From positions 21,689 through 85,688 of the forward strand of contig NZ_JBEWSZ010000013.1 of NCBI RefSeq assembly GCF_040537815.1: a DNA stretch of 64,000 nucleotides. Reading direction: 5' to 3'. Made by a program: the position numbers and the translations under genes. The notes under the pieces were generated by a model, which searched no databases, was not told where the DNA came from, and was given only the letters and a program-made list of their open reading frames with translations. Positions 5,851 through 48,221 of this stretch are shown here, in pieces (position 1 is the first letter of the stretch; each line of letters begins with the position of its first letter). This stretch comes from Mesorhizobium shangrilense. Lineage in GTDB: Bacteria > Pseudomonadota > Alphaproteobacteria > Rhizobiales > Rhizobiaceae.

Positions 5851-6063
5851 ATCGGACGTCATTGAACCGAGAACCTGGCGGGCTTGAATGGGGGATCGAC
5901 CATGTGGCCGCACACTGGAAGAACGGCACGCTGCCTTTGCCCCAACCCGTCCTCGTCCAACTGCGCAAAGGCATCCCCGGCATCGAGGTGCTGCCATGAT
6001 GCGCAACCGGCGGCGGGGTTCGCCAAACATTTCTTCCAATCACGCAATTTTGCGACAGAGACA

Positions 6064-6654: not shown

Positions 6655-6689
6655 CAACTTTGCAATGCCACAGCGGCCCGGCGAAAGCC

Positions 6690-6985: not shown

Positions 6986-7021
6986 GCTGAAATCGCTGCG
7001 GCTGGTCGCGGGGAAGTTCTC

Positions 7022-8624
7022 ATGAAGCAGGCAGGACGCATCGTCATCATTACAGGCGCCGCGGGCGGGATCGGCCGTGCCCTAGTCGATGTTGTTGCCA
7101 AGGATGGAGACACTGTTGTTGCGGTGGACCTTCCGGGCAGCGGCGTCGTTGAACTGGCTCATGGTCTCGGCTACCCGCATCTCGGCCTCGAGTGCGATGT
7201 CTCCCGGGAGGAGGATATTCTCGCGCTTTACGGCCGGGTCGAAGCACAGTTCGCGCAGATTGGCGTCCTCATCAACAACGCGGCGATGGGACCCACCATG
7301 GCCGCAACTGTCGACACCGGTGTCGACGCCTTCCGACGCGGGCTGGCAGTAAACCTGATTGGGCCGTTCGTCATGGCTCGCGAAGCGGCGAGGCGCATGA
7401 GGCCGGGCGGTGCTATCGTCAACATCGCTTCCATGGCGGGCATGGTCGGCAATCCCAAGCGCAATGCCTACGCAGCATCGAAAGCGGGCCTGATCTCATT
7501 GACGAAGTCGCTTGCATGCGACTGGGCTTCTCGCGGCATCCGCGTGACGGCGGTAGCGCCGGGCTACGTGCGCACGCCGATGGTCGCTGAACTGGAACGC
7601 GCGGGCAAAAATCGACCTCGCCGCGGTGCGCCGCCGCGTGCCGATGGGGCGCTTGGCGCGGTCCGACGAGATCGCCCTCGCTGTGCGTTTTCTGGCCAGC
7701 ACGCAGGCGCGCTATATCACCGGATCGGTGCTGGCGGTCGACGGCGGCTGGATGTCATTTAACCAGCCGGGGAATGCGCACCCGCCGGTGGATGGGACGC
7801 CCCGAGCCGAACTCTCCTGTCCGGCCGAACGCGCCGACGCGCGAATCGTGCTCGTCACGGGTGGTGCGAACGGCATAGGCGCGGCCGTGGTTCGCCGCTT
7901 TGCCGCGAGCGGCGATACCGTCGTGATTGCTGACAGAGATGGCGCTGCAGCAGCAGAGTTCGCTGGATTGCTCGACGGCAAGAACCCGGCCAAATCCGTG
8001 GACGTGGCCGTCGAGAGTGAGGTTGTCGCGCTGTTCGAGGAGTTGCGGGGACGCTTCGGGCGCGTCGATGTCCTCGTCAACGGTGCTGGTGTCGCCGAGA
8101 CGTTGTTGTCGGGGATCGAACAAATACCGGAACGGATCGAACACGTCCTGGATGTCAATCTTACCGGCGCCTTCATTTGCGCGCGCGAGGCGATCAAGAC
8201 AATGCGCCCTGGCGGCGTGATCCTCAACCTCGGATCGATCAACAGCTTTCTGCCGTTCGCGCCGCGCCATGCCTACGGCGCCTCCAAGGCGGGGATGGGC
8301 ATTCTGACCCGATGCATGGCGGCCGAACTCGGGCCGGTCGGCATTCGGACAGCCACCGTCGCTCCTGGTTACATCCGCACGCCTGGCGTTGCTCAGTTGG
8401 CGAAAGTCGGCCGCATCGACTCGACAGCGATCAGACGACGCATCCCGATGGGCAGGATGGGACGGCCGGAAGATGTCGCAGACGCGGCATTTTTCCTCGC
8501 TTCGTCTGACGCCTCATACATCAACGGCTCGATCCTCTACGTGGACGGCGGCTGGACCTCGTTCGGTGATGCGGGAAACGCCAGCGAACTCTATGACGAA
8601 TGTTTTGCGGAGGCCGCGGGCTGA
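7022..8624 (+). pseudogene. Double-domain short-chain dehydrogenase, frameshifted between domains
   Basis: Two complete SDR units are encoded in tandem. Unit 1 (from 7022) has TGAAGGIG, NNAAM and YAASKAG. Unit 2 (to 8624) has TGGANGIGAAV, NGAG and YGASKAG. Each would bind NAD(P) and has the catalytic Tyr-x-x-x-Lys. The frame breaks at a run of five A (7607-7611). Removing one A gives a continuous protein of about 533 residues, close to the fused y4vI-type protein I recall from NGR234. As written, unit 1 ends at 7762 with a scrambled tail. A possible restart for unit 2 is ATG 7626, which would keep its domain intact. This may be a true mutation, a sequencing error or slippage. Confidence 0.85.
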
Positions 8625-8930
8625 GTATCGACCATTCGCCAGGCGACGGGCTTCGGCTCATGGAAGCCCAAGATTTCAAATTGCTCCCAGGCTCCCGCTG
8701 CGCGACGCGCCCGCAGCGTGGTCCGCGATCGAGGATATGGTCTTTGGCGCGGAAAGGTCCTCCTCGGGGTCGAAACAGTTCCGAGCCTTCCGGGTGCGCT
8801 TGCAACCGCGGAATGCGAGCGGTTTGCCGCAAGACTATGCCGGCGCCGAGCGTCGGATCGCCACCGCGGCCAAAGCAATCTGTGCGCATGCCCCTGATTG
8901 GCCAACTCCATCTGCAAACAAGGAGACACC
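8625..8930. other. Spacer without a recognised gene
   Basis: The interval between the SDR gene and the monooxygenase is open in several frames but shows no motif. The ribosome site of the next gene (AAGGAG, near 8919) lies at its end. Confidence 0.4.
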
Positions 8931-9983
8931 ATGGAATTCGCCACCTTCATCCTGGCCGCCCAACGTGGCTACCATCAATCCTCCGACAGCGTCATCCGAA
9001 ACTCCATCGAACAGGCCGTCGTTTCGGAGCAGGCTGGCTTCGGCACCGCCTGGTTCCCCGAGCACCACTTCAACAATTACAGCCTGATTCCGTCACCCTT
9101 GATGATGGTGGCGCACTGCGCCGGCGTGACGAACACCATTCGCCTCGGCACTGCCGTCTGCGTGCTGCCGCTCTATCAACCGCAGCGCCTGCTTTCCGAG
9201 ATCGGCTTCGCCGACATCGTTGCGAACGGTCGTCTCGAGCTCGGCGTCGGCGTGGGATACCAGCAATTCGAGTTCGAGCGCTTCGGCGTCAATATCGATG
9301 AGGCGCCGGCCGTCTTTTCGGAATACCTGGACATCCTCCTGAAGGGCCTCAACCAGAAGGTCTTCGAGCACAACGGCCAGTATGAGAACATACCCCCGAC
9401 AGCGATTTCGGTGCGCACCGTCCAGAAGCCGACCCCGCCGATCTGGATCGCCGGCGGGCCGGCGCGCATGGAGCGGGCCTATCGCGAGGGACACAATTTC
9501 TTTGTCACAGCATTCCACGATGGCCTGGAGGATTTGAGCAGGCTGCGCCGAACCATCGAGAAGGCAGCGGCTTGCGAGGGCAGGAATGTCACGGACGCCA
9601 AGATTTCGCTGCTGCGCTGCTGCTATGCCAGCGACGACCAGGCGGAGATCAACAGCTATCTCGATAACGCCCGCTTCCAGCGCCGGCTGTCAGAGGCGTT
9701 GCATCAGCGCCGTCAGCAGAGCGACGACGGCTATCTGCTGACGGAAACACCGACGCGGCAGGATCTGTCGTTCGAGACCATGCGCAAGAACCTGCCGATC
9801 GGCAGTGTCAATCGCGTGATCGATCGCCTGCTGGAAGAGATGGACATCTTGAGACCGGATCAGATCGCAATTCAGACCCAATTGGGAGATTTCGACCAAA
9901 AGACGATGCTGCGCCAGATCGAGCTCTGGGGAGACAAGATCATTCCCGCGATCAACAAGTCGCTGGGTCATGCGCAGATTTGA
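8931..9983 (+). CDS. Luciferase-like flavin-dependent monooxygenase
   Basis: This 350-residue protein belongs to the bacterial luciferase-like superfamily, which uses reduced flavin and oxygen. N-terminal FILAAQRGYHQSSDS, the FPEHHF motif near residue 45, the NGRLELGVGVGYQQFEF segment and TPPIWIAGG near 165 are typical. ATG 8931 follows AAGGAGACACC. Enzymes of this group need a separate flavin reductase; the only candidate nearby is the wrecked gene at 6690-6985. It sits inside the NifA-driven operon and probably acts on the same metabolite as the P450. From memory it corresponds to y4vJ of NGR234. Confidence 0.85.
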   Translation: MEFATFILAAQRGYHQSSDSVIRNSIEQAVVSEQAGFGTAWFPEHHFNNYSLIPSPLMMVAHCAGVTNTIRLGTAVCVLPLYQPQRLLSEIGFADIVANGRLELGVGVGYQQFEFERFGVNIDEAPAVFSEYLDILLKGLNQKVFEHNGQYENIPPTAISVRTVQKPTPPIWIAGGPARMERAYREGHNFFVTAFHDGLEDLSRLRRTIEKAAACEGRNVTDAKISLLRCCYASDDQAEINSYLDNARFQRRLSEALHQRRQQSDDGYLLTETPTRQDLSFETMRKNLPIGSVNRVIDRLLEEMDILRPDQIAIQTQLGDFDQKTMLRQIELWGDKIIPAINKSLGHAQI

Positions 9984-10092
9984 AGTGCGCAACGGCTTGA
10001 ACTTTTTGCCTCAGCTGCATGATCGTTTCAGCCGGCATAAGCGCACGTCCAACGGCAGGGCTCAGGGACGGGACTTAAAGATCGCTTTTCGA

Positions 10093-10455
10093 ATGAGGAG
10101 CGCTTTCGTCACCCTCGACGGCGCCAGATGGGTGCCGGGATGTCTCACCGCTATCGACAGCTCCGCCTGCACCGGCCGCGGCCGCTATTTCAAGGTCTGC
10201 TCGCGCGAAGTCATGCACCTTCACGGCGTCGGTGACCCGGGTGAACTCCTCGGCGCCTGCGGCGGCGAGGACGATGACTTCGATGGCGAGCTCAATCGCA
10301 TGATCATGGTCGTCGACCATGCCGGCCGCTGCATCGGTTGCGGAGCCTGCGGCCACCTCTGCCCGAAGGACTGCCAGACCCACGTTGCAGCCGACAAAGT
10401 CGCTGCATCATCTGACGAGACAAACCCAGGAGAACGGGACCATGTTCGCCCCTAA
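10093..10455 (+). CDS. fdxB: Ferredoxin III-like protein, copy 1, with a damaged cluster motif
   Basis: This 120-residue protein is a divergent copy of the intact ferredoxin at 50617. The second cluster motif CIGCGACGHLCPKDC is complete. The first reads CTGRGRYFKVC, so two of its four cysteines are replaced by Arg and Tyr. That site can no longer hold a normal [4Fe-4S] cluster. The stop codon used in copy 2 has become a sense codon (TGA to TCA), extending the tail by about 15 residues into the start of nifQ. It lies between the monooxygenase and nifQ. It may be a one-cluster carrier or a gene in decay. Confidence 0.8.
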   Translation: MRSAFVTLDGARWVPGCLTAIDSSACTGRGRYFKVCSREVMHLHGVGDPGELLGACGGEDDDFDGELNRMIMVVDHAGRCIGCGACGHLCPKDCQTHVAADKVAASSDETNPGERDHVRP

Positions 10456-11062
10456 CTATGGCTGTCTTAGCCCCGGCCAATGGCCTCGGATCGAGCTCGA
10501 GAAGGAGTTCGACCAGCATGTGCTTGCCTGTGTCCTGTCGTGTGCGCTCAAGGAGGTCGAGGCCGGCGAGGCGACGGCGACGGAGGCAACGGGCCTTTCC
10601 CGCGCCGAGTTGAGCGATGTCCTGACCCGCAGTTTTCCTGCTACCGCTATAAACGCCTTCGCCTTGGATGACGCCGGCGACCCAGAGCGGGGTACGGAGG
10701 AAGAACTTTTGCACGGCCTGCTGCTGGCGCATGCCAGGCCTGGCGATCCGGCCAGCGCCCGCTTCGCTAAGATCATCGCCCGTCGTGCCATGCGCAACGA
10801 CCATCTCTGGCAGGACCTTGGCCTTTTCAATCGGGCCGAGCTCAACCGCCTGCTTGCCACGCATTTTCCGATGCTGGCGGCCGGCAACACCCAAAACATG
10901 AGGTGGAAGAAGTACTTTTACCGCAAACTCTGCGAGGCCGAAGGTTTTTCGCTATGCACCACACCCAATTGCCGGGAATGCAATGATTTCGAAAGCTGCT
11001 TCGGCCCGGAAGAAGGAGAAAGTCGCCTCATGCGGGTCAAGTACGCGATCGCATTAGATTAA
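10442..11062 (+). CDS. nifQ: NifQ, molybdenum delivery for FeMo-cofactor
   Basis: NifQ of 206 residues helps to supply molybdenum to the nitrogenase FeMo-cofactor, probably through an Fe-S/Mo cluster. The diagnostic C-terminal motif is present as CTTPNCRECNDFESC, matching C-x4-C-x2-C-x5-C. ATG 10442 follows AGGAGAACGGGACC. It overlaps the extended tail of the upstream ferredoxin by 14 bases, so translation may be coupled. It is the last gene of the NifA-driven operon and converges on rpoN. Confidence 0.92.
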   Translation: MFAPNYGCLSPGQWPRIELEKEFDQHVLACVLSCALKEVEAGEATATEATGLSRAELSDVLTRSFPATAINAFALDDAGDPERGTEEELLHGLLLAHARPGDPASARFAKIIARRAMRNDHLWQDLGLFNRAELNRLLATHFPMLAAGNTQNMRWKKYFYRKLCEAEGFSLCTTPNCRECNDFESCFGPEEGESRLMRVKYAIALD

Positions 11063-11080
11063 GGGCCGCATTCGTTTGGG

Positions 11081-12490
11081 TTACGAGGCCTTCAGGCCTT
11101 GTTCGCCGTTGAACCATAGCCGCTTTTCCCGGCGCCGCTGTATGGAGGAGGGGATGTTCATCGCCTCGCGATATTTTGTGACGGTGCGGCGAGCGACCTC
11201 GATGCCGGTTTCCTTGAGCCGGACAGCAATGTCATCGTCGGAAAGCACGTCATCAAGCGATTCTTCGGCGACGATTGCCTTGATCCGATGGCGGACAGCT
11301 TCGGCGGAATGCGCGTCACCGCCCTCCGAGGAGGCGATCGCGACAGTGAAAAAGTACTTCAGTTCGAATACCCCGCGTGGGGTAAGCATGTACTTGTTCG
11401 ACGTCACCCGGCTCACCGTTGACTCGTGCACGTTGATTGCGTCAGCGACAGTCCTGAGATTGAGCGGCCGCAGGTGGGCGACGCCATGTTCCAAAAAGGC
11501 ATCCTGCTGGCGCACGATTTCGGTCGCCACCTTAAGGATCGTCTTAGCGCGCTGATCGAGGCTGCGGATTAGCCAGTTCGCATTTTGCAAGCATTCATTG
11601 AGAAATACCATGTCTTTCGAATTTTTGCCGGCCCGGCGTGAGACCTCCGCGACATAGCTTTGGTTAATCAGCAGCTTGGGCAGCGTGTTCGGATCAAGCT
11701 CGATCTGCCATCCACCTCCGGGCGAGGGCAGGACCCAGACGTCGGGTATGATGGTTTCCGGCGGCCCCGATTGGAATCTGTTTCCAGGCTTGGGATCGAG
11801 CGCACGGATTTCTTGCAACATGTCGAGGAGGTCGTCTTCATCGACGCCGCAACGCTGTTTCAATGCCTGAAAATCGCGTCGCGCAAGCATCTCAAGATTG
11901 GCGACCAAAGCCGCCATCGCCGGATCGAACCGGTCGCGCTGGCGCAGCTGTATCTCGAGGCATTCGCTGAGAGTTCGTGCAAAAATTCCCGGTGGATCGA
12001 AGTGCTGCAGGGTTTCCAGAACCCGCTCCACATCAGCCACACGGACGTTTAGGCTCCCGGCCAGCTCCAACGAACTTACCTCAAGATAGCCGGTGTCTTC
12101 CAGGTGAGCGGCAAGCTCGCCAGCAATGAGCTGCTCCTGCGGTGTGAATGCAGTGAGGGCGATCTGACGAGCGACATGGTCGTGCAACGTTTCGACCAAG
12201 GCGACAAATTCCTCGAGGGCAGGACGATCACCCGGCGCGGTACTGGTCCCATTGGGCAGGGATTTCCCTTGCCTGAGCCGGTCCGGTGACCCGGACCAGG
12301 TCGGTCCCTCAACCTCGCCAAACGACCCGTCGTCCTTTGAGGCAGGCTCCAAAAGCGGGTTCTTCTCGAGTTCCTGCTCCACGAATTGATGCAGTTCGGC
12401 ATGCGCCAGTTGCAGCAAACGAATCGACTCAATGAGTTGAGGCGATGCAACCAGAGACTGTTTCTGAAGTAGGCTTACTGATGGTTGCAT
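11081..12490 (-). CDS. rpoN2: RNA polymerase sigma-54 factor, symbiotic copy
   Basis: This sigma-54 factor of about 469 residues recognises -24/-12 promoters and requires activators such as NifA. Region I is glutamine/leucine rich (LLQKQSLVASPQLIESIRLLQL). The central core-binding part includes DPPGIFARTLSECL. The C-terminus has the helix-turn-helix (VHESTVSRVTSNKYM) and the RpoN box ARRTVTKYRE. I prefer ATG 12490 to the TTG at 12511. It lies 170 bases downstream of the peroxiredoxin gene on the same strand. A prxS-rpoN2 operon is known in Rhizobium etli, and a sigma-54 promoter at 13854-13869 suggests self-amplified symbiotic expression. A housekeeping rpoN probably exists elsewhere. Confidence 0.95.
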   Translation of the reverse strand: MQPSVSLLQKQSLVASPQLIESIRLLQLAHAELHQFVEQELEKNPLLEPASKDDGSFGEVEGPTWSGSPDRLRQGKSLPNGTSTAPGDRPALEEFVALVETLHDHVARQIALTAFTPQEQLIAGELAAHLEDTGYLEVSSLELAGSLNVRVADVERVLETLQHFDPPGIFARTLSECLEIQLRQRDRFDPAMAALVANLEMLARRDFQALKQRCGVDEDDLLDMLQEIRALDPKPGNRFQSGPPETIIPDVWVLPSPGGGWQIELDPNTLPKLLINQSYVAEVSRRAGKNSKDMVFLNECLQNANWLIRSLDQRAKTILKVATEIVRQQDAFLEHGVAHLRPLNLRTVADAINVHESTVSRVTSNKYMLTPRGVFELKYFFTVAIASSEGGDAHSAEAVRHRIKAIVAEESLDDVLSDDDIAVRLKETGIEVARRTVTKYREAMNIPSSIQRRREKRLWFNGEQGLKAS

Positions 12491-12660
12491 GGTCAGTGCG
12501 GTCCCTGTCAAAGAAGCTCTTGGCCGTGGCTAATTGGTTCTCTCACAGGTCGACGCCTCTAAAGCGCATCACATTTCTCCGGCCTCATGGGATGCGCTTT
12601 GGAGTTTTGTTTTTGTGCACTTCGTCGCCCAAACACCGCTGCACACCTATGATCGAAAGG

Positions 12661-13194
12661 TCATGCAGCGGCTTTCAACGTCTCAAGAACGTTCTGTGGG
12701 GATGAGACGCCATAGGGGTCGGTCTCACAGTTGTCGGAGAAACCTTCCTCCTCGAACCACTGCTCCACCACGCCATTGTTGATCAGGGCGGCGTAGCGCC
12801 AGGAACGCATACCGAAGCCGAGATTGTCCTTGGCGACCAGCATGCCCATTTTGCGCGTGAACTCGCCTGAGCCGTCCGGGATGAGCTTGACCTTCTGCAG
12901 AGCCAAGGACTTCCCCCACGCATTCATGACGAAGGCATCGTTGACGGAGACACAGTAGACCGCGTCAATTCCCTGCTTCTCAAACTCGTCGTAGAGCTCT
13001 TCGAAATTGGGCAGTTGGTAGGTCGAGCAGGTCGGGGTGAAGGCACCAGGCAGCGAGAATAGGATGACGCGCTTGCCGCCGAAATAGTCGTCGGATGTCT
13101 TTTCTTCCCAGCGATATGGATTTGGCCCCTGGACTGACTCATCGCGTACACGCGTGAGAAAGGTGACGAAGGGAACCTTCTTTTGAACGGTCAT
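12661..13194 (-). CDS. prxS: Peroxiredoxin (Prx5-type, prxS-like)
   Basis: This 177-residue atypical peroxiredoxin reduces peroxides through a peroxidatic cysteine in PGAFTPTCSTYQLP. The Prx5 pattern is seen in the GKRVILFSLPGAF strand and in the C-terminal GFGMRSWRYAALINNGVVEQWFEE segment. Its start ATG (13194) overlaps the stop of the upstream ORF as TGATG. In Rhizobium etli prxS is cotranscribed with rpoN2 and expressed in nodules; the arrangement here is the same. It likely protects microaerobic bacteroids from peroxide. Confidence 0.9.
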   Translation of the reverse strand: MTVQKKVPFVTFLTRVRDESVQGPNPYRWEEKTSDDYFGGKRVILFSLPGAFTPTCSTYQLPNFEELYDEFEKQGIDAVYCVSVNDAFVMNAWGKSLALQKVKLIPDGSGEFTRKMGMLVAKDNLGFGMRSWRYAALINNGVVEQWFEEEGFSDNCETDPYGVSSPQNVLETLKAAA

Positions 13195-14761: not shown

Positions 14762-16198
14762 TCAGCTGGTTTGGAACGGTTCCCGGTATTGCACCCCCTC
14801 AAAGCTGGATAGAGCCGATTGAATCGACTCATACCACTTTGGAATTTGCGAGATTTGCGTACTCGAGCGCAGGCAGTTTTCGCGCGCGGTTCTGGCCATC
14901 TCCTCGAAATCACTATAACCGGTCGCAAGGCGATGCATCATTTCTGCAGCTTTGTCCTCGATGTCCGGCTCGTCGAGGACAACGCCATTCAGCCCATTTA
15001 CGACCTGCCTCTTTAGGCCAAAGGCGGACGACACTACGACGGGTTTTCCTCGGAACAGGGCCTCTGTTGCTGTCAGGCCGAAGCCCTCCTCGCGAGAGAG
15101 CGCAAATACTCCATGGGCGTTCTGTTGCAGCCGGCCGACAATTTCGGCATTTGCGTCGTGGTCCTTCATCGAGATACAGGTCAGATACACGCGCCGCCGC
15201 ACTTCCTTGGGTAATTGAGAGCATAATGCGACGCATTTCTCGAAATACTCGCGTCCTTCAGGATCGTCGGCAACATCCAAAGGATCCGGTCCCGCGATCA
15301 CCATGCGTATATCGTCTGCATCGGCGAGCGCCATTTTCACAAAGCGATCGAAAGCGGCGATGATCCGGTCAATTCCTTTCAGTCCATCCCACCTGGATAC
15401 ATGCAGGAAATACCGCGAGCCGAGAATGTTCTGAAGGGATGAGGTGGGCTCGAATTCTTGGCTATTGAACGAAAACGAATTCTCCAGCGTCTTGCCCGCT
15501 GGCCCTTCATAGTTACGGTTCTTGCTTGAGAATGGGCTGATCGATGGCTGGATGATATCTATGGGGAGACCGGTATCAAAGGCATATTCCTTGGCGCTCA
15601 GGACAATGCGCTGGAATTGACGCAGGTATTCTCCCAGAAACCCCCAGGTTTCGTCGACTGTCGGGGTGCGCTTTGGATAGCCGATGTGGCATCGCCAGAT
15701 AGCCGGGTGCGGGTGAGAGTCCAGGAACTTCGCAGCTGCACCAAGTGGCTGCGGATCATGAATAATCAGAAAGGCATCAGGTCTGATAATCCTTTCCAGC
15801 TGCGCGGCGCCTTGCTTCGATGCCTCAAGATAATGCGGCAGCAGATCATTCAAGCCTGCCACAGCGGCGTCGTGCAGAGAATTGTGAAGTCCTTTGGTGA
15901 ACTCAAAAAATTGCTCTTCCTTCGGTTTAAAAATGAGCCAACGCACATCAAAACCAAGTTCCCGAAGGAGGCATATGTGGTGTGGAAGCATTTCGGCCAC
16001 CCCACCGCCGAACGCGGTGGAATTTATGTGCCAAATAGAACGGCGGCCAATCTTGTCACGAATTGCACTGGACGAACGAAATAGTTCATTGAGAAGTTCG
16101 TCATACTTGTTTCGTTCCGCTGCGTAATGCTCAAGTACCGAGCCTTCTATCAGCACCTCATCAAATAGTGGTGTGCGGGATTTCGTTGATACTTTCAT
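14762..16198 (-). CDS. GT4-family glycosyltransferase, TreT-like
   Basis: This protein of 478 residues resembles TreT, the trehalose glycosyltransferring synthase that joins a nucleotide sugar to glucose. The N-terminus has the TreT-like stretch WHINSTAFGGGVAEMLPHH and LGFDVRWLIF. The C-terminal Rossmann half has HVSRWDGLKGIDRII and the E-x7-E donor site EEGFGLTATE. Length is near that of TreT. Its ATG overlaps the end of the HAD phosphatase gene by 4 bases, so the two are translationally coupled. It is the last gene of a minus-strand cluster preceded by a sigma-54 promoter at 20432. The acceptor may be an amino or keto sugar rather than glucose; that is inference. Confidence 0.82.
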   Translation of the reverse strand: MKVSTKSRTPLFDEVLIEGSVLEHYAAERNKYDELLNELFRSSSAIRDKIGRRSIWHINSTAFGGGVAEMLPHHICLLRELGFDVRWLIFKPKEEQFFEFTKGLHNSLHDAAVAGLNDLLPHYLEASKQGAAQLERIIRPDAFLIIHDPQPLGAAAKFLDSHPHPAIWRCHIGYPKRTPTVDETWGFLGEYLRQFQRIVLSAKEYAFDTGLPIDIIQPSISPFSSKNRNYEGPAGKTLENSFSFNSQEFEPTSSLQNILGSRYFLHVSRWDGLKGIDRIIAAFDRFVKMALADADDIRMVIAGPDPLDVADDPEGREYFEKCVALCSQLPKEVRRRVYLTCISMKDHDANAEIVGRLQQNAHGVFALSREEGFGLTATEALFRGKPVVVSSAFGLKRQVVNGLNGVVLDEPDIEDKAAEMMHRLATGYSDFEEMARTARENCLRSSTQISQIPKWYESIQSALSSFEGVQYREPFQTS

Positions 16199-16884
16199 TT
16201 CGTGGCCCGCCGTTCAGTCTGAGAAGCAGGTTCAGCGCGGCCGGTTAGAAAGGAAGCCTCGCTAAAATTCTCTATCCAGCCCCTGGTGTCAGGGTGACCC
16301 CTGGCATTGGGGCCGACACCTACGCAGTCGCAGCCTGCAGCGATCGCCGCTTCAATACCGGTGCGGGAATCCTCAAAAACCAAGCATCTTTTGGGAGTGA
16401 TGCGCAGCATTCGCAACAGCGTTTGATAGGGTTGCGGATGCGGCTTTCCGTGACTGACGTCCTCGGCTGCAATCATGATCCTCGGGCGGGAGAGCCCAGC
16501 GGCCTCGAGGCGGGCAAGGGCCGAAACCCTTGCCGAAGAGGTGACAATAGATCTCCGTTCGGCGGGGATCGAGCTATAGAACTCTGCGGCGCCCTGGATC
16601 GGTTGCAACAGCCTCATCGCTTGGATCTCATAATCCGCAATGCGAGTTGCTTCGCGTTCTGGCGAGCGACCGGGCGTAATCGCCGCCACCAGGTCGACGT
16701 CCCGGCGGCCGGCCGACATCCGAATTGCGTAATCCGGAGAGATCCGTTCCTCTCGTGCCCATCGACGGAGTGCGCTTTCGACCACAGCCTCCGAATCTAC
16801 AAGGGTACCGTCCAGATCGAAGGCAACATGATCATAATCTTCGAGCTGAACATTGACGGTTGTGGTTTTCGTTCGATCTTTCAC
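16195..16884 (-). CDS. HAD-superfamily sugar phosphatase or phosphomutase
   Basis: This 229-residue haloacid dehalogenase-type hydrolase is probably a sugar-phosphate phosphatase. Motif I is FDLDGTLVDSE, motif II is in VTSSAR, motif III is the lysine in GKPHPQPY and motif IV is VFEDSRTGIEAA. The spacing between motifs I and II fits a small helical cap, as in beta-phosphoglucomutase relatives. The GTG start at 16884 has GGGAGG upstream. It sits 16 bases after the aminotransferase gene and overlaps the glycosyltransferase start. In the pathway it could remove phosphate from a sugar or amino-sugar intermediate. Confidence 0.82.
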   Translation of the reverse strand: MKDRTKTTTVNVQLEDYDHVAFDLDGTLVDSEAVVESALRRWAREERISPDYAIRMSAGRRDVDLVAAITPGRSPEREATRIADYEIQAMRLLQPIQGAAEFYSSIPAERRSIVTSSARVSALARLEAAGLSRPRIMIAAEDVSHGKPHPQPYQTLLRMLRITPKRCLVFEDSRTGIEAAIAAGCDCVGVGPNARGHPDTRGWIENFSEASFLTGRAEPASQTERRATK

Positions 16885-16900
16885 GGCTTTCCTCCCCGTA

Positions 16901-18147
16901 TCAGCCCGAATGATGCTTGCTGGAGAGACATACTCTTTCTGTGGTGTGGAACGCCTCCGCGCAGTATTCGACTATGGGTGCGTCAGTGACCTGTGCAGTC
17001 ATGTCCTCGTCCTTGCGGTAGTCTGCGAGTGCTCGCTCCAGTGCCGGCTGCAAAGCTGCGAAAAATGCACCTTCCATGGACGCATTGCTCATGTATGTCC
17101 CTGGGTAGCCGGTGTAGATACCGTGTTGCAGACACCTCTGAGCGAAGACCCTTCCATGCTTTTGCGAGGGCAGAACGATTCTGAACATGGTATCGCTCCG
17201 AGCACGCGCGCAGGTATTTCGCTACGCTCGAACGAGGTCTGGAACTGCCTCTTGAGCGCTAAGCCGCTCTCGGCGATGCGAGCCGCGATTTCTGCTTCTT
17301 CAGAGATTTCCTGTGTCAGGTTGCCGGCCACATAGGCCCGGTTCTCGCGCAGATAGGTATTACCAAGGTAGGCCTTGTCGGCTCCCACCATGGCACCGGC
17401 GGTGCCGACGACCGCGGAAAGGCCAATGCCTTGTGCGATCCCCTTCGCCAATGTGATGAGGTCAGCTTTCACACCGTGTTTTCGGTAGTAGCCACCCTTG
17501 GCGTAACGACGTCCGCATAGAACCTCATCAACGATAAGCAATACTCCATGCGGGCTAGCCATCCTGGAGATCTCCTGGAGCAATTCCGGAGGAAAGACCG
17601 AAGACTCAGGCGTGACGAAAATGCCCGCGACTCTCCCCTCGTTCCCGACTAGCTGCTGCTCAAGGTTATCGAGATCATATTGGAAATCCTGGATATGCTG
17701 ATCCTTGGCCGGCGGATTGCCCGACCAGGGGTGCTGTTGAAAGATGTCGTGCCACCCGTGGAAGCCAGCCGTCAGGATGACCGGCCGGCCAGTTCGGTGT
17801 CGGGCGATCCGAACAGCCGCTTCCGTCGCACAAGATCCGGTCCTCAGAAAGAACACTCTGGAATTGCTTGGGAACATCTCCGAGATTTTCCCGGCGAGTA
17901 TCTGGCGTTGCTCACTCACCGGAGATGGCAGAATATCAGTTTCTCGCTCCATCGCCTGCGCAAGCTTGGCCTTGAACACTGGGTCATTGTTGCCCAAGGG
18001 CGAAGCCCCGCTGCAGGACGTCATATCCAGATAGATCTTGCCGTTGATATCCTCCGCCATCCCGCCATTGGCGGACCGGAATATGATGGATGACCGGGTG
18101 TCACGCTCCCATTCCGCCAAATGCTCGGTAGCTCCAGGATCGAGCAT
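16901..18147 (-). pseudogene. Class-III aminotransferase (GSA-aminomutase-like), frameshifted near 17190
   Basis: This is a PLP-dependent class-III aminotransferase. Recognisable features are RTGSCATEAAVRIAR, GFHGWHD, the PLP-binding aspartate in LIVDEVLCGRR and the PLP lysine in LITLAKGIAQG. The first frame runs from 18147 to about 17190. The natural C-terminus (FRIVLPSQKHGRVF... GIYTGYPGTYMSNASMEGAF) continues in another frame to 16901. One lost or gained base at about 17190 explains this. As written the protein lacks its C-terminal domain and is probably inactive, unless this is a sequencing error. It lies 12 bases after the GMC oxidoreductase gene. Together they could convert an alcohol to a ketone and then to an amine. 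Confidence 0.82.
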
Positions 18148-18159
18148 CGAAATTGCCCC

Positions 18160-19650
18160 TTACTTGACTGACATGGCCATTCGCCTGGCGTTGGCCATGA
18201 ATGTGTGTGTCGGATTGCTGCTCCCCGCGAAGTTCATAACGGAGCCATCCATGACATGGATGTTGGTGAACCCGTGGACCCTGCCGCAGCTGTCTACCAC
18301 CGAGGTCCTCGGATCACATCCGGCACGCATCGTGCCGTGCAGGTGGCCGCTGCCTTTTCCATGGGAAGATGGCTCTCGCTCGATGCGGAATGCGCCAAGA
18401 TGGCGCAGAATGTCATCCGCGCGGTCGGCGAGAAAATTTATTCGCGCACGGTCATTTTCGGAGTTTCGGTATTCGAAACGGATGTAAGGGATACCGTACT
18501 GGTCAACGGCCTCGTCAAGCACGACGCGATTATGCGACCATGGCTCTTCTCCAGCTGTGTAGTGCAGGCGCACAAGGCCGACGTTCTTATCCGGCGAGGG
18601 GAAATTCGCTTCATAAATGAGGCCGCCAAATCTGCATGGCACGTCGTTATGCTCGTAGAAGTCATCGGTATAAACCGTCGCATGCGGTCCCCAGTGCGGA
18701 GCAAATGCACCGGAGCCGCGATCGGCCGGTTCCATGTAGCCGACGGAGTAGCCTTTAATCTTGAATGAGAGGCCCCGCCCAACGAGGCCGGATTCGTTTC
18801 CTATTCCCTTCGGTGCATGCCCACTCTTCGACCGAAGCATCAATGCCGCTGATTGTATCGCGTTTGCGCAGACGATGACCCTTTCAACTGGGATCCGGAT
18901 CAGTTCCGATGAGAGCGGCACATAGCACTCAAGGGCTTCAGCCCGACCGTCGTCCCGCATTTCGATCCGGTTGACGAAACAGCCGTATAGAACCGAGATC
19001 GTTCCTGGCAGGGGAGAGTCATCCAAAATGTTTCTTGCAAGCACTGATGCTCTCGCATCCGTAGGGCACACCAGATCATCGCAAGCCGAACAATTGGTGC
19101 ATCCCTTGTTGGTCCTTGGCGGCCTGATTGCCAGGGGGATGCTCTTTGATCTTATGCTGAGTTCCTGCATTGCATTGGATAACATCAACCCACGCGGACT
19201 GGCTGGATACGATAGGAACCCATTCGCACCACTGACCTCCAGGAGATGCTCGATCTCCGAATAGTAGGGTTCAAGATCCTGGAGGGTAATGGGCCAATTA
19301 ATCTCCATGTCAGTCGCAAGATATTGGGAGACTGACAGATCTGCTTGTCGGTACCTGAACGTTATCCCGTTGTAGAACGGCATCCCGCCGCCGACGCAGC
19401 ACGCTGTCCATGGGTTACCATCGGCGGGGCCGTTGGAAGTGAGTGCCTTGCTGTAGGCCGCTTGATGAGGCTCAAGCATGGCGCCAGGGGAAACCAGGCC
19501 TCCATATTCCAGGACGGCCACATGGCAGCCCCTTTCCGCAAGTGTTCGGGCGACGATCGATCCAGATGGCCCGGAGCCGACGATAACCGCATCGAAGTTT
19601 GTGTAATTACATGAGTCCGCTGCAATGTGTCTGATGTCCGTCACGGTCAA
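18160..19650 (-). CDS. GMC-family oxidoreductase (sugar or cyclitol dehydrogenase-like)
   Basis: This 496-residue FAD enzyme oxidises an alcohol. It has the N-terminal FAD motif VIVGSGPSGSIVARTL, the ADGNPWTACCVGGG segment contacting FAD, and a C-terminal active site with GHLHGTMRAGCD and SSNPTHTFMANARRMA (His/His or His/Asn pair). A cysteine cluster GCTNCSACDDLVC near residue 185 resembles that of gluconate and fructose dehydrogenase-type subunits. No signal peptide is evident, so a cytoplasmic location is likely. Start is TTG 19650 with AGGAG upstream; a GTG at 19644 is an alternative. It is followed by an aminotransferase gene, which suggests oxidation of a ring hydroxyl before transamination. 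Confidence 0.85.
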   Translation of the reverse strand: MTVTDIRHIAADSCNYTNFDAVIVGSGPSGSIVARTLAERGCHVAVLEYGGLVSPGAMLEPHQAAYSKALTSNGPADGNPWTACCVGGGMPFYNGITFRYRQADLSVSQYLATDMEINWPITLQDLEPYYSEIEHLLEVSGANGFLSYPASPRGLMLSNAMQELSIRSKSIPLAIRPPRTNKGCTNCSACDDLVCPTDARASVLARNILDDSPLPGTISVLYGCFVNRIEMRDDGRAEALECYVPLSSELIRIPVERVIVCANAIQSAALMLRSKSGHAPKGIGNESGLVGRGLSFKIKGYSVGYMEPADRGSGAFAPHWGPHATVYTDDFYEHNDVPCRFGGLIYEANFPSPDKNVGLVRLHYTAGEEPWSHNRVVLDEAVDQYGIPYIRFEYRNSENDRARINFLADRADDILRHLGAFRIEREPSSHGKGSGHLHGTMRAGCDPRTSVVDSCGRVHGFTNIHVMDGSVMNFAGSSNPTHTFMANARRMAMSVK

Positions 19651-20258
19651 TAGTCTCCTGTGGGGTGTGCGGTAGCTGGCCAGCGGGCGGTGCTCGCGAT
19701 GGAGGCCAGGAGGTGCTTATACGGGCCACGTAGTGGGGAACCGCGATGCCTGCCGGGCCGGTGGCAGGGTGACGGTAGTTGACGAAGAGGCCGTCGTAGG
19801 TACGCGCGACCCAGAGGTACACTTCGTCCGGGTCGCTGCTGCGGCCGCAGAGGATGACAATCCGCCAAAGTGTTCCAGTCTCGGGCACCGGGGGTGCGAC
19901 GAAGGTCACTGTACGAAACCATGAAGGGGTCGCGGAGGGGTCGGCCGAGGAACTCCTCCACTCGGGGTATGGGTATCTGGGCCAGGTCCTTCACTCCGTC
20001 GAGGCCGGAGACCGCGGAGCGCACCGCCTCAGCGAAGGAGTCGGTTGCGCTTGCAGGGAAGGTGATGGGGCCCATACCTACGTACCAGCCGATGGAGGAC
20101 CGCGAGGGACCCGTCAGGGTGTCGAGCAGGACACTGAGCAGAGTGGTGCCGGAGCGGTTCTCACCGCCGAGCAGGACAGGGTTAGAGGGCAGGGCGAGAG
20201 GAGGGGACACGTCTTTGTCCATGCCCACATTTACTAGGAGAGGTTTGGAAGTGTTCAC
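19607..20258 (-). pseudogene. Degenerate sulfotransferase gene
   Basis: The N-terminal part has a PAPS-binding P-loop, GGENRSGTTLLSVLLDTL, typical of sulfotransferases. A GTG at 20258 follows GAGGAG closely and is the best start. After about residue 115 the best codon bias switches frame (PPVPETGTLWRIVILCGR onwards, ending at 19607), and the downstream PAPS-binding region expected in a full enzyme is missing. Total coding length is well below the roughly 300 residues of the family. It is the first gene after the sigma-54 promoter at 20432 and overlaps the start of the GMC gene. It is probably a remnant. Confidence 0.6.
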
Positions 20259-20431
20259 TTTCGTCTCCTCAAGCACGAGACTTTAGGCGACGCGATCACT
20301 GCCGGACCGGTACCCCTCGGGAGGTGGCGTAGCCAGAATTCATGCGCATCGACCTCAGATGGCTTTTTGAGCCCCCTGGAAGAGGTTTTGGGAGACTTCT
20401 CCTCAGTCCGTACTCGTCTTGCGGATAGCCT

Positions 20432-20447
20432 TGCATGTACCGTGCCA
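20432..20447 (-). promoter_or_regulatory. Sigma-54 promoter of the sugar-modifying cluster
   Basis: On the minus strand this reads TGGCACGGTACATGCA: perfect -24 box, GC at the right place in the -12 box. It lies 174 bases before the first start codon of the cluster and about 60 bases downstream (on the minus strand) of a NifA site. Confidence 0.75.
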
Positions 20448-20508
20448 AAGCAGAAAGCATTTGAAAACATCTGATTGGTCAGATTCTGTTACGTTGCATA
20501 CCCGACAT

Positions 20509-20524
20509 TGTCGGGTATTGGACA
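20509..20524 (-). promoter_or_regulatory. NifA upstream activator site
   Basis: TGTCGGGTATTGGACA matches TGT-N10-ACA. It overlaps a perfect 21-base palindrome at 20498-20518. The site begins with the same TGTCGG as the one before iscN at 55916. Confidence 0.75.
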
Positions 20525-21541: not shown

Positions 21542-23701
21542 TCAGGAGCGCGACGCCGGCCGCACTCCCATTTCCTTGAGCAGCCGGCCCGCGCCGTCGA
21601 TCTTGTCCATGGTCCAGAGCATGAAGCGACTGTCGACATGGATGCTGCGATTGCGATCCGCGTCAGGGGCCCAGTCCGAGATCACGCCCTCGAGCGTGCC
21701 GTCGAACGCGAGACCGACGAACTCGCCGCGCCCGTTCAGCGTCGCCGAGCCGCTGTTGCCGTTGGTGATGTCGACCGTGGACATAAAGTCGACCGGCAAC
21801 GTGCCCAGCGCTGGCGCGACATATGGGCCATAATCCTTGGCCCGAATCGCGGCAACCGCGGCATCCGGCGCATCGAACTCGCCCTTGCCAGTGTGCTTGG
21901 CCAGTAGTCCCTCGGCCGTGGTGAAGGGCGTCCAGATCTGCCCGTCGCGCGTTCGCCCTGTCACCTTGCCCCAGGTGATGCGCAGCGATCCATTCGCGTC
22001 CGGATACACGGGCCGGCCGATCGCCTGCCGATAGGCACGCAGGCCCTGCACATAGGTCGCGCGGGCCGCCTGCGTGCGGCCGGCGCGGTCTTTCTTCACG
22101 CCCTCCGCAGCTATGTCGCCAGGATAGAGCGCGACCGCCAGTTTAATGAAAGGATCATCCGACGCCTCGAAGGCAGTAGCCGGCTTGCCGAGCCAGCCGA
22201 GCCGCGTGGCCGTGTCGGCGAGTTTGGTGTCTGCATAAAGTCGGTCAAGGCCGATTTGGTCCAGAGCGGTCTCGAACGCAGTATTGCGATCCTTCGCGTC
22301 CAGCCGGCGATATACATCGAGCGCGGCCTCGAAGAGCTTGCGATCGATGTCGGGCAGATAACGGCGTTCGATCTGCGTCAGTTGATCGACGGTCTTGTTG
22401 CGGTTACGATCCTGAAAGCCGCTTTCGCGGTCTTCATCGGGCTTCTCGTGCTCCTTCGCCCAGCGATAGAGAGTGCGCGCGGATGAGAGGATTTGCGCGC
22501 GGCCCAAAAGCGCCTGCCGCAGTCCCTCGAGCGAGGCCCGGCTGTTCTCGGCCACCATGGCGTCCAGTTCGCGGATTGCTGCGCCATAGCGCGCCTGCCG
22601 CGCGGAATCGTCAGCAACCCAGTCGCGATAAGCTTTCTCCTCGTTGGCCTTGCGAGCGGTGAGCCCAATCGCATCGGCGCCGGCGAGATCGCCCGCCAGC
22701 TTCTTCTCGTAGTTTTCCACGCCTTGCAGGATGGCGGCGTAGCGGATCTGCGCGTCACGATTGCCTGCCGTGGCCTGCTTGATCTGGGCGGCATAGTCCG
22801 ACAACAAATGCTGCAGCAGCGGTTCGAAGTGCGCGAAGTTGAACCGTACTTCGCCGGCGGTGCGCAACCGATTGGTCGTCGCCGGGAAGCCGGCGACCAT
22901 CACGAAATCGCCTTCTTGGACGCCTTCAGGGGCGATGCGCAGCCAGCTCTTCGGCCGGTAAGGTACATTGTCGCGCGCATAATGGCGGGAGGAACCATCA
23001 CGAGCGACATAGGCGCGATAAAAGCCGAAGTCGCCTGTGTGGCGCGGCCACGTCCAATTGTCCGTTTCGCCGCCGAAGTTACCGATGCCGAGCGCGGGCG
23101 CATAGACGAGGCGCACGTCCTGAATTTCGAGCTTCTGCTGGAGATAGTAGGAGGCGCCGCCATAATAGGCCCCCACGTCGCAGCGGCGATTGGGCTGTTT
23201 TTCACATGCGGCGATCAGCGCCTTGCGGTTCGTGTCGAGCCGTTCATTGCGGGCAAAGCCGTTCAGCTTGTCCGAAACGCCCTTGAGCATGCCGGCGGTC
23301 ACATCCCGCATATCCTCGATCACATAGATGCGGCTGCCGGGCGCCGCGGGCAATTCTTCACCCAGGCTCTTCGCCAGAAAGCCGTTTGTGAGATAGTCCT
23401 GGCCCTCCCTGCTGTTGTACTGGATCGATCCGAACACGCAGTGATGATTGGTCGCGACCAGCCCTTGTGGACTGACGAAGGAGGCGGAGCATCCGCCCAG
23501 TGATACGATCGCGTTGAGCGGGTCAGCGTCCAGACGGCGCAGCTGGGCGGGATCGATCTGGAGCCCATCCGCGCGCATGGCCGCGCCCACTTCCGCAGTC
23601 TGGCCCGGCATCCACATACCTTCGTCCGCCGTCGTAGCGGTGACCGTCCAGAGCAAGGCGATGGCAGTTGCTTGGGCCAAACATTTCACATTCGAGTTCA
23701 T
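21542..23701 (-). CDS. S46-family dipeptidyl peptidase (DPP7/DPP11-like), periplasmic
   Basis: This serine exopeptidase of 719 residues removes N-terminal dipeptides from oligopeptides. A signal peptide is seen at residues 1-26. The chymotrypsin-like halves show the catalytic histidine in VATNHHCVFG, an aspartate region near GGETDNWTWPRHTGDF, and the serine in DITNGNSGSATLN. The helical domain lies between them. The substrate-selecting segment reads LAFDGTLEGVISDW. ATG 23701 is chosen because the signal peptide starts there. S46 peptidases are best known from Bacteroidetes and some Xanthomonas or Sphingomonas relatives. Upstream (23884, 23934) are a sigma-54-like promoter and a NifA site, so nodule expression is plausible. 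Confidence 0.9.
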   Translation of the reverse strand: MNSNVKCLAQATAIALLWTVTATTADEGMWMPGQTAEVGAAMRADGLQIDPAQLRRLDADPLNAIVSLGGCSASFVSPQGLVATNHHCVFGSIQYNSREGQDYLTNGFLAKSLGEELPAAPGSRIYVIEDMRDVTAGMLKGVSDKLNGFARNERLDTNRKALIAACEKQPNRRCDVGAYYGGASYYLQQKLEIQDVRLVYAPALGIGNFGGETDNWTWPRHTGDFGFYRAYVARDGSSRHYARDNVPYRPKSWLRIAPEGVQEGDFVMVAGFPATTNRLRTAGEVRFNFAHFEPLLQHLLSDYAAQIKQATAGNRDAQIRYAAILQGVENYEKKLAGDLAGADAIGLTARKANEEKAYRDWVADDSARQARYGAAIRELDAMVAENSRASLEGLRQALLGRAQILSSARTLYRWAKEHEKPDEDRESGFQDRNRNKTVDQLTQIERRYLPDIDRKLFEAALDVYRRLDAKDRNTAFETALDQIGLDRLYADTKLADTATRLGWLGKPATAFEASDDPFIKLAVALYPGDIAAEGVKKDRAGRTQAARATYVQGLRAYRQAIGRPVYPDANGSLRITWGKVTGRTRDGQIWTPFTTAEGLLAKHTGKGEFDAPDAAVAAIRAKDYGPYVAPALGTLPVDFMSTVDITNGNSGSATLNGRGEFVGLAFDGTLEGVISDWAPDADRNRSIHVDSRFMLWTMDKIDGAGRLLKEMGVRPASRS

Positions 23702-23883
23702 GTTGATCTCGCCCCATCCTGATTCTGTTCTCCGCAGACTCGATGACAATCGGGATGGCCGGCGTCCGCCAGCGCCTGCGCTGCCGCCACTCCGTGAAGA
23801 CTGAGTGGACCGTTAACGCAAGAATCCAGATGACGCGCACCTCTCATTGTATCGGTTCCGTGCAACGTTTGCGGATCATCCGC

Positions 23884-26924: not shown

Positions 26925-29900
26925 TCATCCCCTGAGTCGGGTTTGCAGTGCCTGCCGATTGACGACGAGGTTGTCGAGGTTCAGCAGGTCTGGCTGCAAT
27001 CTTTGCAATCGCCTAACCAGCGCCCGCGTACCGTCCACCACGAAGACGCCGCAATCATAACCGTTCCGCTGTTGGGCCATGCCGGGTGACATCAGGCCGG
27101 AATGGCCCAGCCTTGCTGCGAGCTCTGCTGCAGGCTTGTCATTGTATCCCCTGTTGGAGTCGTAGTGATAAGCAACCGGCCTTTCCCGCTCGCTGCGATC
27201 AACGAACAGCAGCGACCAATGGCTACCGCGGCGATTAGGATCCGTAGCACTGGCATCGTTCACCGGCACGAACAGGAAGTCGGCTCTATCGTCCCCATTC
27301 TGATCATCGACGACGCGCCGGAATGCGCGTGACGCGTCGCTCTCGGCGCCCAAGCGCAGATGATAGTGGGCTACGAGGGGATCCACGAACCGCGTTCGGG
27401 CGGCCAGATCTGGATTGTTCCGCTGCAACTCCTGCGCCAGGAGCTCGTAATCCCTCAGGATATGTTCGTCGCCCAGCCATTGCCTGGCGCCGAGCACCCG
27501 CCCGCTGCGGTCGTGGGACGAGGCTGTAGGATACGAAGCCCCGATCTGAGCATCGGAGGATGTGCTCGGAAACACTGGCGCATAATGAGCATCGTCACGC
27601 AGCTCGTGCGGTGTGGACGGCAAATCAAGGAGAGACCCAAGCCCGCGGTAGAAATCTGACGACAGAGCCCTTGCCGGTGCCGCTAACGCAGCTTCACTCA
27701 TGGGCCGAGGTCGAGGGTGATGGATGAGCTGAACGTCATTGGGCCCTCCGGTCCCCAAGACGGCGGTGTAGCGCTCACCGCGAATGTCGTAGCTCATCAC
27801 CCGCTGTTCCGCGTCCGGCAACAGGCCCAAGTGGCTCAAGCTAGAGAGCATCGTTTCCGGGGCGGATTGGGTGCGGTGGGAAAAGTCCTCGGGAACGGCG
27901 AATGAAACATCAATTGTCTCGCCGACAGGGGGGGCGGTCTCCTCAGCCCTCGCGGACGCTGGCACGGCCTGCTCCATCGTCGGTCGAAAGAGCTCTGGCG
28001 AGGCGGAATTTCCCACCCGCAAGCTGGGCTTCGGAGCGAGTTCCGGTCGATATCTCAGTGGTACCTCCTCGCTTGGTAGCAGGCTGCTCCTGTCCAGTGC
28101 ACCCATCAGCTCGTCCGGCGCGCGCCGGTCGCCGTGGCGCCAGTTCAAGTGACGAACGGCCCCTCCGAAATCCGGTGCTTGGTGATGGTGCGCAGTTGGC
28201 ACGGGAGACGATGGTAGAACCGCGTCGTCTTCATTACCTTCCCCTGGGAGGTTCTCTGGCCAACCGAATGCCTCCTGCGGTGCGCTGTGCTGCGCAGCGG
28301 CGTCCCCAATGGGACTAGCGTCCATGCCGACCGTGTCTTCCGGATGAGCAGCAAGGGCAATTTCGCGTCCGAGTGCGGCGCGCGGCAGGAACTTCTGGAG
28401 ATGAACCAGTGCAGCACCGATCTTTTGCTCACCACCGGAGTCCTTATAGCGCCTGACATCTTCATCCAGCGACCCCTCGTGAATCCGAGCCGCAATCCCC
28501 GGCTTGTTGTTTTCACGCAGGTATTGACTGAAACGTTTAAGAACAGTTGCATAGCTGCGAGTGGTATTTGGAGTCGGCCAGATCGCAGGCGCTGCCTCGT
28601 ACTGTTTGATGAGGGCCGCTGTGTATCTTCTGATGAGCGCCGCGTCGTCAGGATCGGGATTCAGGGCAGTGCGCCCCACCATTGGCGCGGCTCCGCCCGC
28701 CGACTTCTTGAGCTGACCCAGTGCGCCAGCCACGGATGAGGAACCACCCTTGCTCTCGTACTCCTTGAGATCCTGATTCAGCGACGGATGGTAAAGCCGA
28801 GCAGCAAATCCCCGCCTGTTGTTTTCAAGGAGCCAACGACCAAAGCCGAAAAGAAGACTTACATTGCGCGTGACCGTGCTCTCCTTGGCCTTACCCGCGC
28901 GGAGTGCTGACCTCAGCCCTTCAATAACGGTCGCATCGCTGGAATAAAGAGGACGCTTGTTGCGACCGTCGGAGACCACTATCGGAGGATCCGGCTGCAT
29001 TGCCGAGGGCATCGACCCACCGCCTCCGGCATGCGGTGCTGGGGTGTATTCGTGCTCGTCCCCGGGCATCATAAGCCGCGCCCCCCATGCCGATGTACCC
29101 ACTTGATGGGCGGGGTCCTGCATCGGTTCGATCTCCTCCATCTCCTCCCGCAACCAAGCCAAAGCTTGTCGAGCGGCCTGCGCGGCCTCGCCAACCGCGG
29201 AGGATGTCTCCTCAGCCCTGGCGAACGCCGGCCCGGCAGGCGCCGGCACAGAATGAGAATGGTCACGCAACTCGAACGGTGCGGGCGGAGCCAGATCAAC
29301 CACTGACGAATGCGGCGCATGATGATGCCGCGTCGTTGAGTGACCCGGCTGCAGCACCGAGGCACCCAGCATCGGCACACCGCCTCCGGCGTACGGCGCC
29401 GCGGCGTGTTCCTGTCCGCTCCCTTGCATCATGGGCTGCGCTTCCCATGGCAATGCGCCCGCTTGATGAGTGGGGGCCTGCATCAGCACGCGAGCGCCTG
29501 AATTGTCGATCTCGCTTAGCCGCGGCTCAGTGGCAACGTCGCCTGGCGGGAGGCTGCTCCTGTCCAGTGCACCCATCAGCTCGTCCGGCGCGCGCTGGTC
29601 GCCGTGGCGCCAGTTCGAGTGACGAACGGCCCCTCCGAAATCCGGTGCTTGGTGATGGTGCGCAGTTGGCACGGGAGACGATGGTAGAACCACGTCGTCT
29701 TCATTACCTTCCCCTGGGAGCTTCTCTGGCCAACCGAATGCCTCCTGCGGCGCGCTGTGCTGCGCAGCGGCGTCCCCAATGGGACTAGCGTCCATGCCGA
29801 CCGTGCCTTCCGGATGAGCAGCAAGGGCAAATTCGCGTCCGAGTGCGGCGCGCGGCAGGAACTTCTGGAGATGAACCAGTGCAGCACCGATCTTTTGGTC

Positions 29901-48153: not shown

Positions 48154-48221
48154 ACCGGCCATCTTGGCCATTTGGAAGTTTTTCAAAGCGCAATCATGGG
48201 CTTATTGCGCGCTGAGCGCGC

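Follow-up and report, generated by a model that had tools for sequence, protein, structure and literature searches.

A run of five genes on the minus strand of a 64,000-nucleotide stretch of Mesorhizobium shangrilense DNA (the window, meaning the whole stretch analysed) appears to be a decayed copy of a biosynthetic cluster that modifies trehalose. The product of the intact cluster is probably an acylated, sulfated 6-amino-6-deoxytrehalose (rough probability 0.6). This structure is named because two routes to trehalose, TreT and OtsAB, are linked to the modification genes, and because the acyltransferase and the aminotransferase match PapA2 and C-6' aminotransferases, respectively. The decayed cluster itself is real. 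No prior description of it, or of a natural 6-aminotrehalose, was found among the literature matches listed, a weak absence since most subscription journals lay outside their scope. Gene content, gene order, family relationships, decay, location on symbiotic replicons and promoter elements were computed; each chemical step, the regiochemistry, the acyl length, the function and horizontal transfer are inferred.

The gene run of the window and its counterparts

The members of the run and the elements before it are as follows.

14762..16198, minus strand: TreT-like GT4 glycosyltransferase (GT), intact open reading frame (ORF) of 478 amino acids (aa), identified by Pfam and a family profile
16195..16884, minus strand: HAD-IA phosphatase (HAD), sugar-phosphatase-like, intact ORF of 229 aa, HAD_2 at 1.5e-21
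16901..18147, minus strand: class III aminotransferase (AT) pseudogene, ORFs 17089-18147 and 16901-17188 in two frames
18160..19650, minus strand: GMC FAD-dependent sugar oxidoreductase (GMC), intact ORF of 496 aa, GMC_oxred_C at 7.3e-21
19647..20276, minus strand: first ORF, 209 aa, deletion fusion of sulfotransferase (ST) and acyltransferase, identified by blastn blocks and tblastn pieces
20432..20447, minus strand: sigma-54 -24/-12 element TGGCACGGTACATGCA, one mismatch to TGGCAC-N5-TTGCA
20509..20524, minus strand: NifA upstream activator sequence (UAS) TGT-N10-ACA, 77 bp upstream of the -24/-12 element

The ORF coordinates agree with the initial annotation of a compact run in which neighbouring genes overlap or are separated by gaps of at most 16 bases, and Pfam families back the names given to GT, HAD, AT and GMC. 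For the first ORF, neither Pfam nor NCBIfam gives a match at 0.001. It had been called a sulfotransferase remnant, and the 5' end of the ST gene is indeed present, but blastn against symbiotic plasmids (L005, L006, L007 and L009) reveals that this end is joined near 20121 to the 3' third of an acyltransferase gene, which is annotated on symbiotic plasmids as "condensation domain-containing protein". A plain remnant is thereby ruled out. About 2.26 kb of S. americanum sequence is absent at the join (blastn), and tblastn matches ST residues 5-38 and acyltransferase residues 311-478. The acyltransferase tail has frame breaks, and by eye homologous residues go on in ORF 19607-19909. The acyltransferase, a key gene, was missed in the initial annotation, most of it being deleted in the window. 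AT is frameshifted near 17194-17197, with two tblastn pieces spanning residues 1-413 of 415. The window GMC is 83% identical to that of S. americanum over residues 1-494. Because other Mesorhizobium copies are also decayed, the frame breaks seen in the assembled sequence are plausibly biological and not assembly errors. With ST, acyltransferase and AT broken, the window copy is predicted to be incapable of adding sulfate and acyl groups and, in the sequence as assembled, the amine; GMC, HAD and GT remain open. The complete product is probably beyond the reach of this strain.

Other rhizobia carry homologous clusters with an identical gene order. A blastn search of plasmids returned 15 records, in five of which a single place accounted for 80% or more of the query. 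The order ST, acyltransferase, GMC, AT, HAD, GT is found in S. americanum CCGM7, S. terangae CB3126 and S. fredii GR64; on these three Sinorhizobium plasmids GT is followed by an AraC-type or helix-turn-helix regulator, and hydrogenase genes lie nearby. The cluster of C. taiwanensis STM8555 reads ST, MFS pump, acyltransferase, GMC, AT. A genome scan gave 19 loci. Scoring covered 24 loci (L005-L028), several of which are close relatives of one another, and a gene was counted as full when one tblastn piece covered at least 90% of the S. americanum protein with no stop. GMC is full in all 24 loci, ST in 19, the acyltransferase in 17, and AT and GT in 14 each; L026 has a separate, divergent AT. 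ST, acyltransferase, GMC and AT are all full in 12 loci, from Sinorhizobium/Ensifer, Cupriavidus and Paraburkholderia, and eight of these 12 also have HAD and the TreT-like GT. A core gene is broken, cut or missing in L008, L013, L017-L020, L022-L025 and L027; L024 runs to the contig end, so its AT is not judgeable. In C. taiwanensis SWF66294 (L008), one annotated ORF (5750-7828) spans the ST and MFS homology, and AT is truncated, an IS4 gene being annotated immediately past it.

Nine of the 24 loci combine GMC, AT, HAD and GT in full or nearly full form. This rules against an ordinary trehalose synthase for osmoprotection that lies beside unrelated genes by chance. GT is a TreT homolog, as that explanation would have it, but the co-occurrence and the confinement of the acyltransferase to nodA-bearing genomes within the family sample make it most improbable.

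GMC was found in six of 146 genomes of the window's genus, namely that of the window and five of the M. plurifarium type (L017-L020 and L025). All six are without a whole ST, a whole acyltransferase and an unbroken AT. The reduced set GMC-HAD-GT, including that of the window, could be a pathway of its own, leading to an oxidised, unaminated trehalose in nodules under NifA. GMC and GT are full and HAD is open over its matched part in the window and in all five M. plurifarium-type loci, no stops occur in up to seven copies translated, and the paired promoter elements are kept. Nei-Gojobori omega for L017 versus L018 is 0.29 (GMC), 0.27 (HAD) and 0.16 (GT), though both loci are already without ST and AT; for the window versus M. 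alhagi the values are 0.38, 0.18 and 0.36, and for GMC in intact pairs (L005, L012 and L014) they are 0.17-0.22. These values suggest that the open genes are still constrained or only recently released. However, these omega values derive from a small number of pairs and may cover a period preceding the losses, and the window keeps most of its frameshifted AT, which suggests recent decay. A separate reduced pathway is regarded as possible but rather unlikely.

Enzyme families and the predicted product

The reading of the run as a decayed trehalose-modifying cluster draws on the families of its enzymes. Among solved structures, PapA2 (trehalose-2-sulfate acyltransferase) stands clearly closest to the cluster acyltransferase, whose family has the full-length PapA2 fold. 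The HxxxD motif is kept: His173 and Asp177 are invariant among 49 aligned sequences and align to PapA2 His166 and Asp170. The acyltransferase search scored the 7996 best candidates and yielded 73 proteins; named sources are Sinorhizobium, Agrobacterium rhizogenes, Variovorax, Cupriavidus, Paraburkholderia, Xanthomonas, Lonsdalea, Pectobacterium and Streptomyces, among others. ST belongs to the Sulfotransfer_3 family. Its structure model is middling (pLDDT 72.8), and mycobacterial STF9 and STF1 are among the best 50 Foldseek rows; the mycobacterial trehalose sulfotransferase Stf0 is in neither these rows nor the nine sequence matches, a miss that does not exclude a relation.

The AT family profile matches the aminoglycoside C-6' aminotransferase 7lm0 at 9.2e-88, these enzymes being its closest solved relatives. 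Lys235 is invariant in 10 of 10 sequences and, to judge from its motif, would be the lysine that binds pyridoxal phosphate. GT matches TreT_GT1 (PF21269, 1.6e-35) and Glycos_transf_1 (PF00534), both above cut-off, and so combines a TreT N-terminal domain with a GT4 C-terminal domain; its family profile matches TreT 2x6q at 1.2e-46. It misses the NCBIfam TreT equivalog, a Thermococcales model, with 163 bits versus a cut-off of 775. The best NCBIfam model for HAD is a sugar phosphatase, with a score below the model cut-off.

The link to trehalose is seen in two enterobacterial genomes. In Pectobacterium betavasculorum (L026), OtsB (7716-8489), OtsA (8486-9880), GMC (9911-11476) and AT (11497-12807) lie on one strand, and the acyltransferase, an MFS pump and ST are divergent from them. 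In the second genome (G1276), OtsB, OtsA, GMC, AT and a second ST are consecutive (L060 2620-8740), with ST, MFS pump and acyltransferase about 13 kb off on the same contig. Its OtsB was confirmed by Pfam on a slightly shorter stretch, and its GMC match, first scored with one stop, is an open frame in two further analyses. The genome is probably a Lonsdalea, because a Lonsdalea quercina protein shares 98.9% identity with its acyltransferase. Since otsB-otsA adjoin GMC and AT in both enterobacteria, two unrelated trehalose routes, TreT and OtsAB, are, as gene neighborhood indicates, tied to the same modification genes. The second family ST of G1276 (L060 7811-8740) stands beside otsBA-GMC-AT, and past it glycosyltransferase-like and radical SAM-like ORFs are seen by eye, hinting at a more elaborate product.

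In the proposed pathway, trehalose would come from the TreT-like enzyme or, in the two enterobacterial genomes, from OtsA/OtsB, and HAD would probably remove a phosphate somewhere at this stage. The GMC flavoenzyme would oxidise the C6 hydroxymethyl of one glucose to an aldehyde, which the class III AT would turn into 6-amino-6-deoxytrehalose. ST would add sulfate from 3'-phosphoadenosine 5'-phosphosulfate, the PapA2-like enzyme would add an acyl group from coenzyme A to a hydroxyl or the amine, and an MFS or RND pump may export the product. Because the acyltransferase belongs to the intact cluster, the predicted product becomes a sulfoglycolipid. The amino-trehalose-like, sulfated compound proposed in the initial annotation fits better after this comparison (the PapA2, AT and TreT matches and the otsBA linkage), but not its amine on a ring carbon; the exocyclic C6 is more likely, since the AT profile matches C-6' aminotransferases.

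Several observations weigh against this product. No product is known for the cluster. Fructose dehydrogenase (4.4e-25) is the closest match of the GMC profile, followed by glucose dehydrogenase (4.6e-18), with pyranose 2-oxidase (6e-12) and 6'''-hydroxyparomomycin C oxidase (1e-11) further down, so C6 oxidation rests mainly on AT. The enterobacterial ATs are only 31-32% identical to that of S. americanum, and OtsA, present in 8 of 8 genomes tested, is so commonplace that it gives weak support. HAD and GT are absent from three Ensifer/S. kostiense loci and from five of the six Cupriavidus loci, the sixth (L027) having a partial HAD and no GT. A TreT-like enzyme was found only in P. atlantica among six genomes searched, so the disaccharide elsewhere must come from another enzyme. 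The nearest ST relatives among the matches listed are tyrosylprotein sulfotransferases, and no trehalose sulfotransferase is among the sequence and structure matches listed. The available text of PMC6996325 gives the PapA2 zinc site as Cys19, His21, His124 and His135; none of these four ligands is kept in an alignment judged by eye, where the family consensus has V, R, A and R. The cluster acyltransferase thus appears to be PapA-like and not PapA2 itself. Finally, comparisons among Mesorhizobium-type copies give GMC omega values of 0.29-0.38, above the roughly 0.2 of intact pairs, which hints at relaxation.

AT and, more weakly, GMC resemble the C-6' tailoring enzymes of aminoglycosides, and some sources name GMC a paromamine 6'-oxidase. 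The cluster could therefore aminate another acceptor (another disaccharide or an aminocyclitol glycoside) in a pathway like those of aminoglycoside antibiotics, its TreT-like enzyme making a 1,1 or other linkage. This is unlikely, as otsB-otsA adjoin GMC and AT in two enterobacterial genomes, the PapA2-like acyltransferase points to trehalose, and no cyclitol synthase is annotated in the gene tables of the plasmid loci compared. The aminocyclitol-containing product raised in the initial annotation is set aside, since nothing found points to one.

Promoter elements before the run

The NifA/sigma-54-type elements reported before the run are present, with one mismatch and the spacing listed above. 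When a pair is defined as a -24/-12 element with at most one mismatch and a UAS 40-220 bp upstream, only two pairs occur in the 64 kb, the expectation being 0.025 per strand (first-order Markov, 40 simulations). The promoter region of the window has homologs at three sites of the same genome (L002, L003 and L004) and in L017/L018. By eye, the L004 place precedes an IscA-like gene, and those in L002 and L003 precede genes with an M16 peptidase-like start on the minus strand. The region in L018 looks like the capture of a nif-type promoter, because its homology to the L002 region extends over 214 alignment columns.

The pair recurs in all five M. plurifarium-type loci, where the -24/-12 element has two mismatches and the spacing is 74-75 bp, and all six Cupriavidus loci have both elements about 110 bp apart, with one mismatch and in a sequence differing from that of the window. 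A -24/-12 element with at most one mismatch was found within 600 bp upstream in none of 12 Sinorhizobium/Ensifer, M. alhagi and Paraburkholderia loci; in L021 a site with two mismatches is present but lacks a UAS, and a lone TGT-N10-ACA occurs in L005, L010, L012 and L028. The pair was not found before the Pectobacterium sulfotransferase. NifA control, as predicted from these elements, is lineage-specific, because they are present in the window, the five M. plurifarium-type and the six Cupriavidus loci and not in the 12 other rhizobial loci. The NifA/sigma-54 link made at first is supported by promoter elements for these lineages but not in general, and a general NifA promoter for the cluster family is rejected, as the element was not found in the 600 bp scanned in Sinorhizobium.

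The homology to promoter-like regions elsewhere in the same genome, together with the broken state of the cluster, would also fit a relic, without function here, of a nif promoter that had recombined. The pair is nevertheless kept in all five M. plurifarium-type loci, and a different sequence carries the same two elements in all six Cupriavidus loci; we give the relic explanation limited credence. Under the trehalose-modification pathway, the cluster would have come under nif-type promoters in the Mesorhizobium lineage, where ST, acyltransferase and AT function would have been lost and GMC, HAD and GT left open.

Strongly conserved non-coding blocks occur in the approximately 150 bp upstream of ST in seven Sinorhizobium loci (L005, L006, L009, L010, L011, L012 and L028), and may be where the AraC-type regulator encoded behind GT acts. 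Two M16 (pitrilysin-type) peptidase genes adjoin the cluster, in S. americanum (L005 5630-8364, Pfam) and in S. fredii GR64 (L009 5568-8302, annotation); the M16-like genes of the window genome (L002/L003, by eye) carry a promoter region homologous to that of the window. Host peptides are cleaved by some M16 peptidases of rhizobia. Ahead of a 393-aa redoxin/thioredoxin ORF (48370-49551) stands a perfect -24/-12 element whose UAS is 84 bp upstream (window 48138-48237). A little beyond the cluster promoter, 21542-23749 encodes a 735-aa S46-family peptidase.

Symbiotic replicons and known glycolipids

Of the 24 loci, 16 had their genome or record searched; nodA is present in 15 of these and nifH in 14, Pectobacterium being without both and M. 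alhagi without nifH. Plasmid records carry nodA, nifH and the cluster together in 5 of 5 cases, and the window itself holds nifHDK-like ORFs from 37121 onward (by eye). The acyltransferase is present in 6 of 394 family genomes, including the truncated copy of the window, and nodA in 21 of 394. All six acyltransferase genomes are among those with nodA (hypergeometric 1.1e-8, which overstates the evidence, as four of the six are one genus); the nodA sample was taken as the same 394 genomes, since handles repeat. Elsewhere the acyltransferase was found in 1 of 398 phylum genomes, 1 of 394 of the Pectobacterium order and 2 of 119 of the Pectobacterium family, the center genome being included each time and being itself the single genome in the phylum and order samples. 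The cluster has apparently spread horizontally among plant-associated bacteria. The correlation of identity values between its genes carries no weight here, because shared inheritance and species kinship would look alike in it. The window also contains a 1711-aa ORF (26925-32060) with a C-terminal Ulp1/C48 protease domain, possibly a secreted effector.

The mycobacterial sulfolipid SL-1 pathway comprises a trehalose sulfotransferase, PapA2 and PapA1. The cluster resembles it in pairing ST with a PapA2-fold acyltransferase, which here would act on trehalose. It differs in that its ST is of the Sulfotransfer_3 family with tyrosylprotein sulfotransferases as nearest listed relatives, its acyltransferase is without the PapA2 zinc ligands, GMC and AT are added, many loci have their own trehalose synthase, no polyketide synthase is annotated in the locus tables compared, and the pumps seen belong to the MFS or form a two-gene RND efflux pair. 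Aminoglycoside 6'-amination uses an FAD/GMC oxidase and a class III C-6' aminotransferase, converting CH2OH to CHO to CH2NH2. The cluster shares this oxidase-aminotransferase logic, its AT being closest to the C-6' enzymes, whereas no 2-deoxystreptamine genes are annotated in the tables compared, the scaffold enzymes would make trehalose, and sulfation and acylation would follow.

The available text of PMC11019547 describes 2-, 3- and 4-aminotrehalose as natural and the 6-isomer as chemically synthesised; the bacterial trehalosamines are 2-, 3- and 4-aminotrehalose of actinomycetes and alpha,beta-3-trehalosamine of Bacillus (PMC11019547, PMC6960277). The cluster product would likewise be a bacterial amino-deoxy trehalose, unlike these in its predicted C6 amine, sulfate and acyl group. 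Nod factors have a sugar backbone with an acyl chain and, in some, sulfate, and their genes lie on symbiotic replicons. Their backbone and enzymes differ, and the likeness to the cluster product is an analogy only.

If the predicted product is correct, nodule bacteria from two classes of Proteobacteria, together with some enterobacteria associated with plants, would make a trehalose-based compound with a C6 amine, sulfate and an acyl group, the amine at a position listed as synthetic only in the available text of PMC11019547. More speculatively, alpha- and beta-rhizobia may share a symbiotic-replicon pathway for an exported sulfated N- or O-acyl 6-aminotrehalose, switched by NifA in nodules of some lineages and kin to a compound of plant-associated enterobacteria. 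Under this tentative proposal the compound would found a new class of symbiotic glycolipids, lying midway between mycobacterial sulfolipids and Nod factors, in both of which sulfate and acyl groups tune host recognition. Pathway genes have been lost repeatedly on symbiotic replicons, a pattern that might arise if certain hosts or strains disfavor the product; the gene set provides a direct, testable handle on that product.

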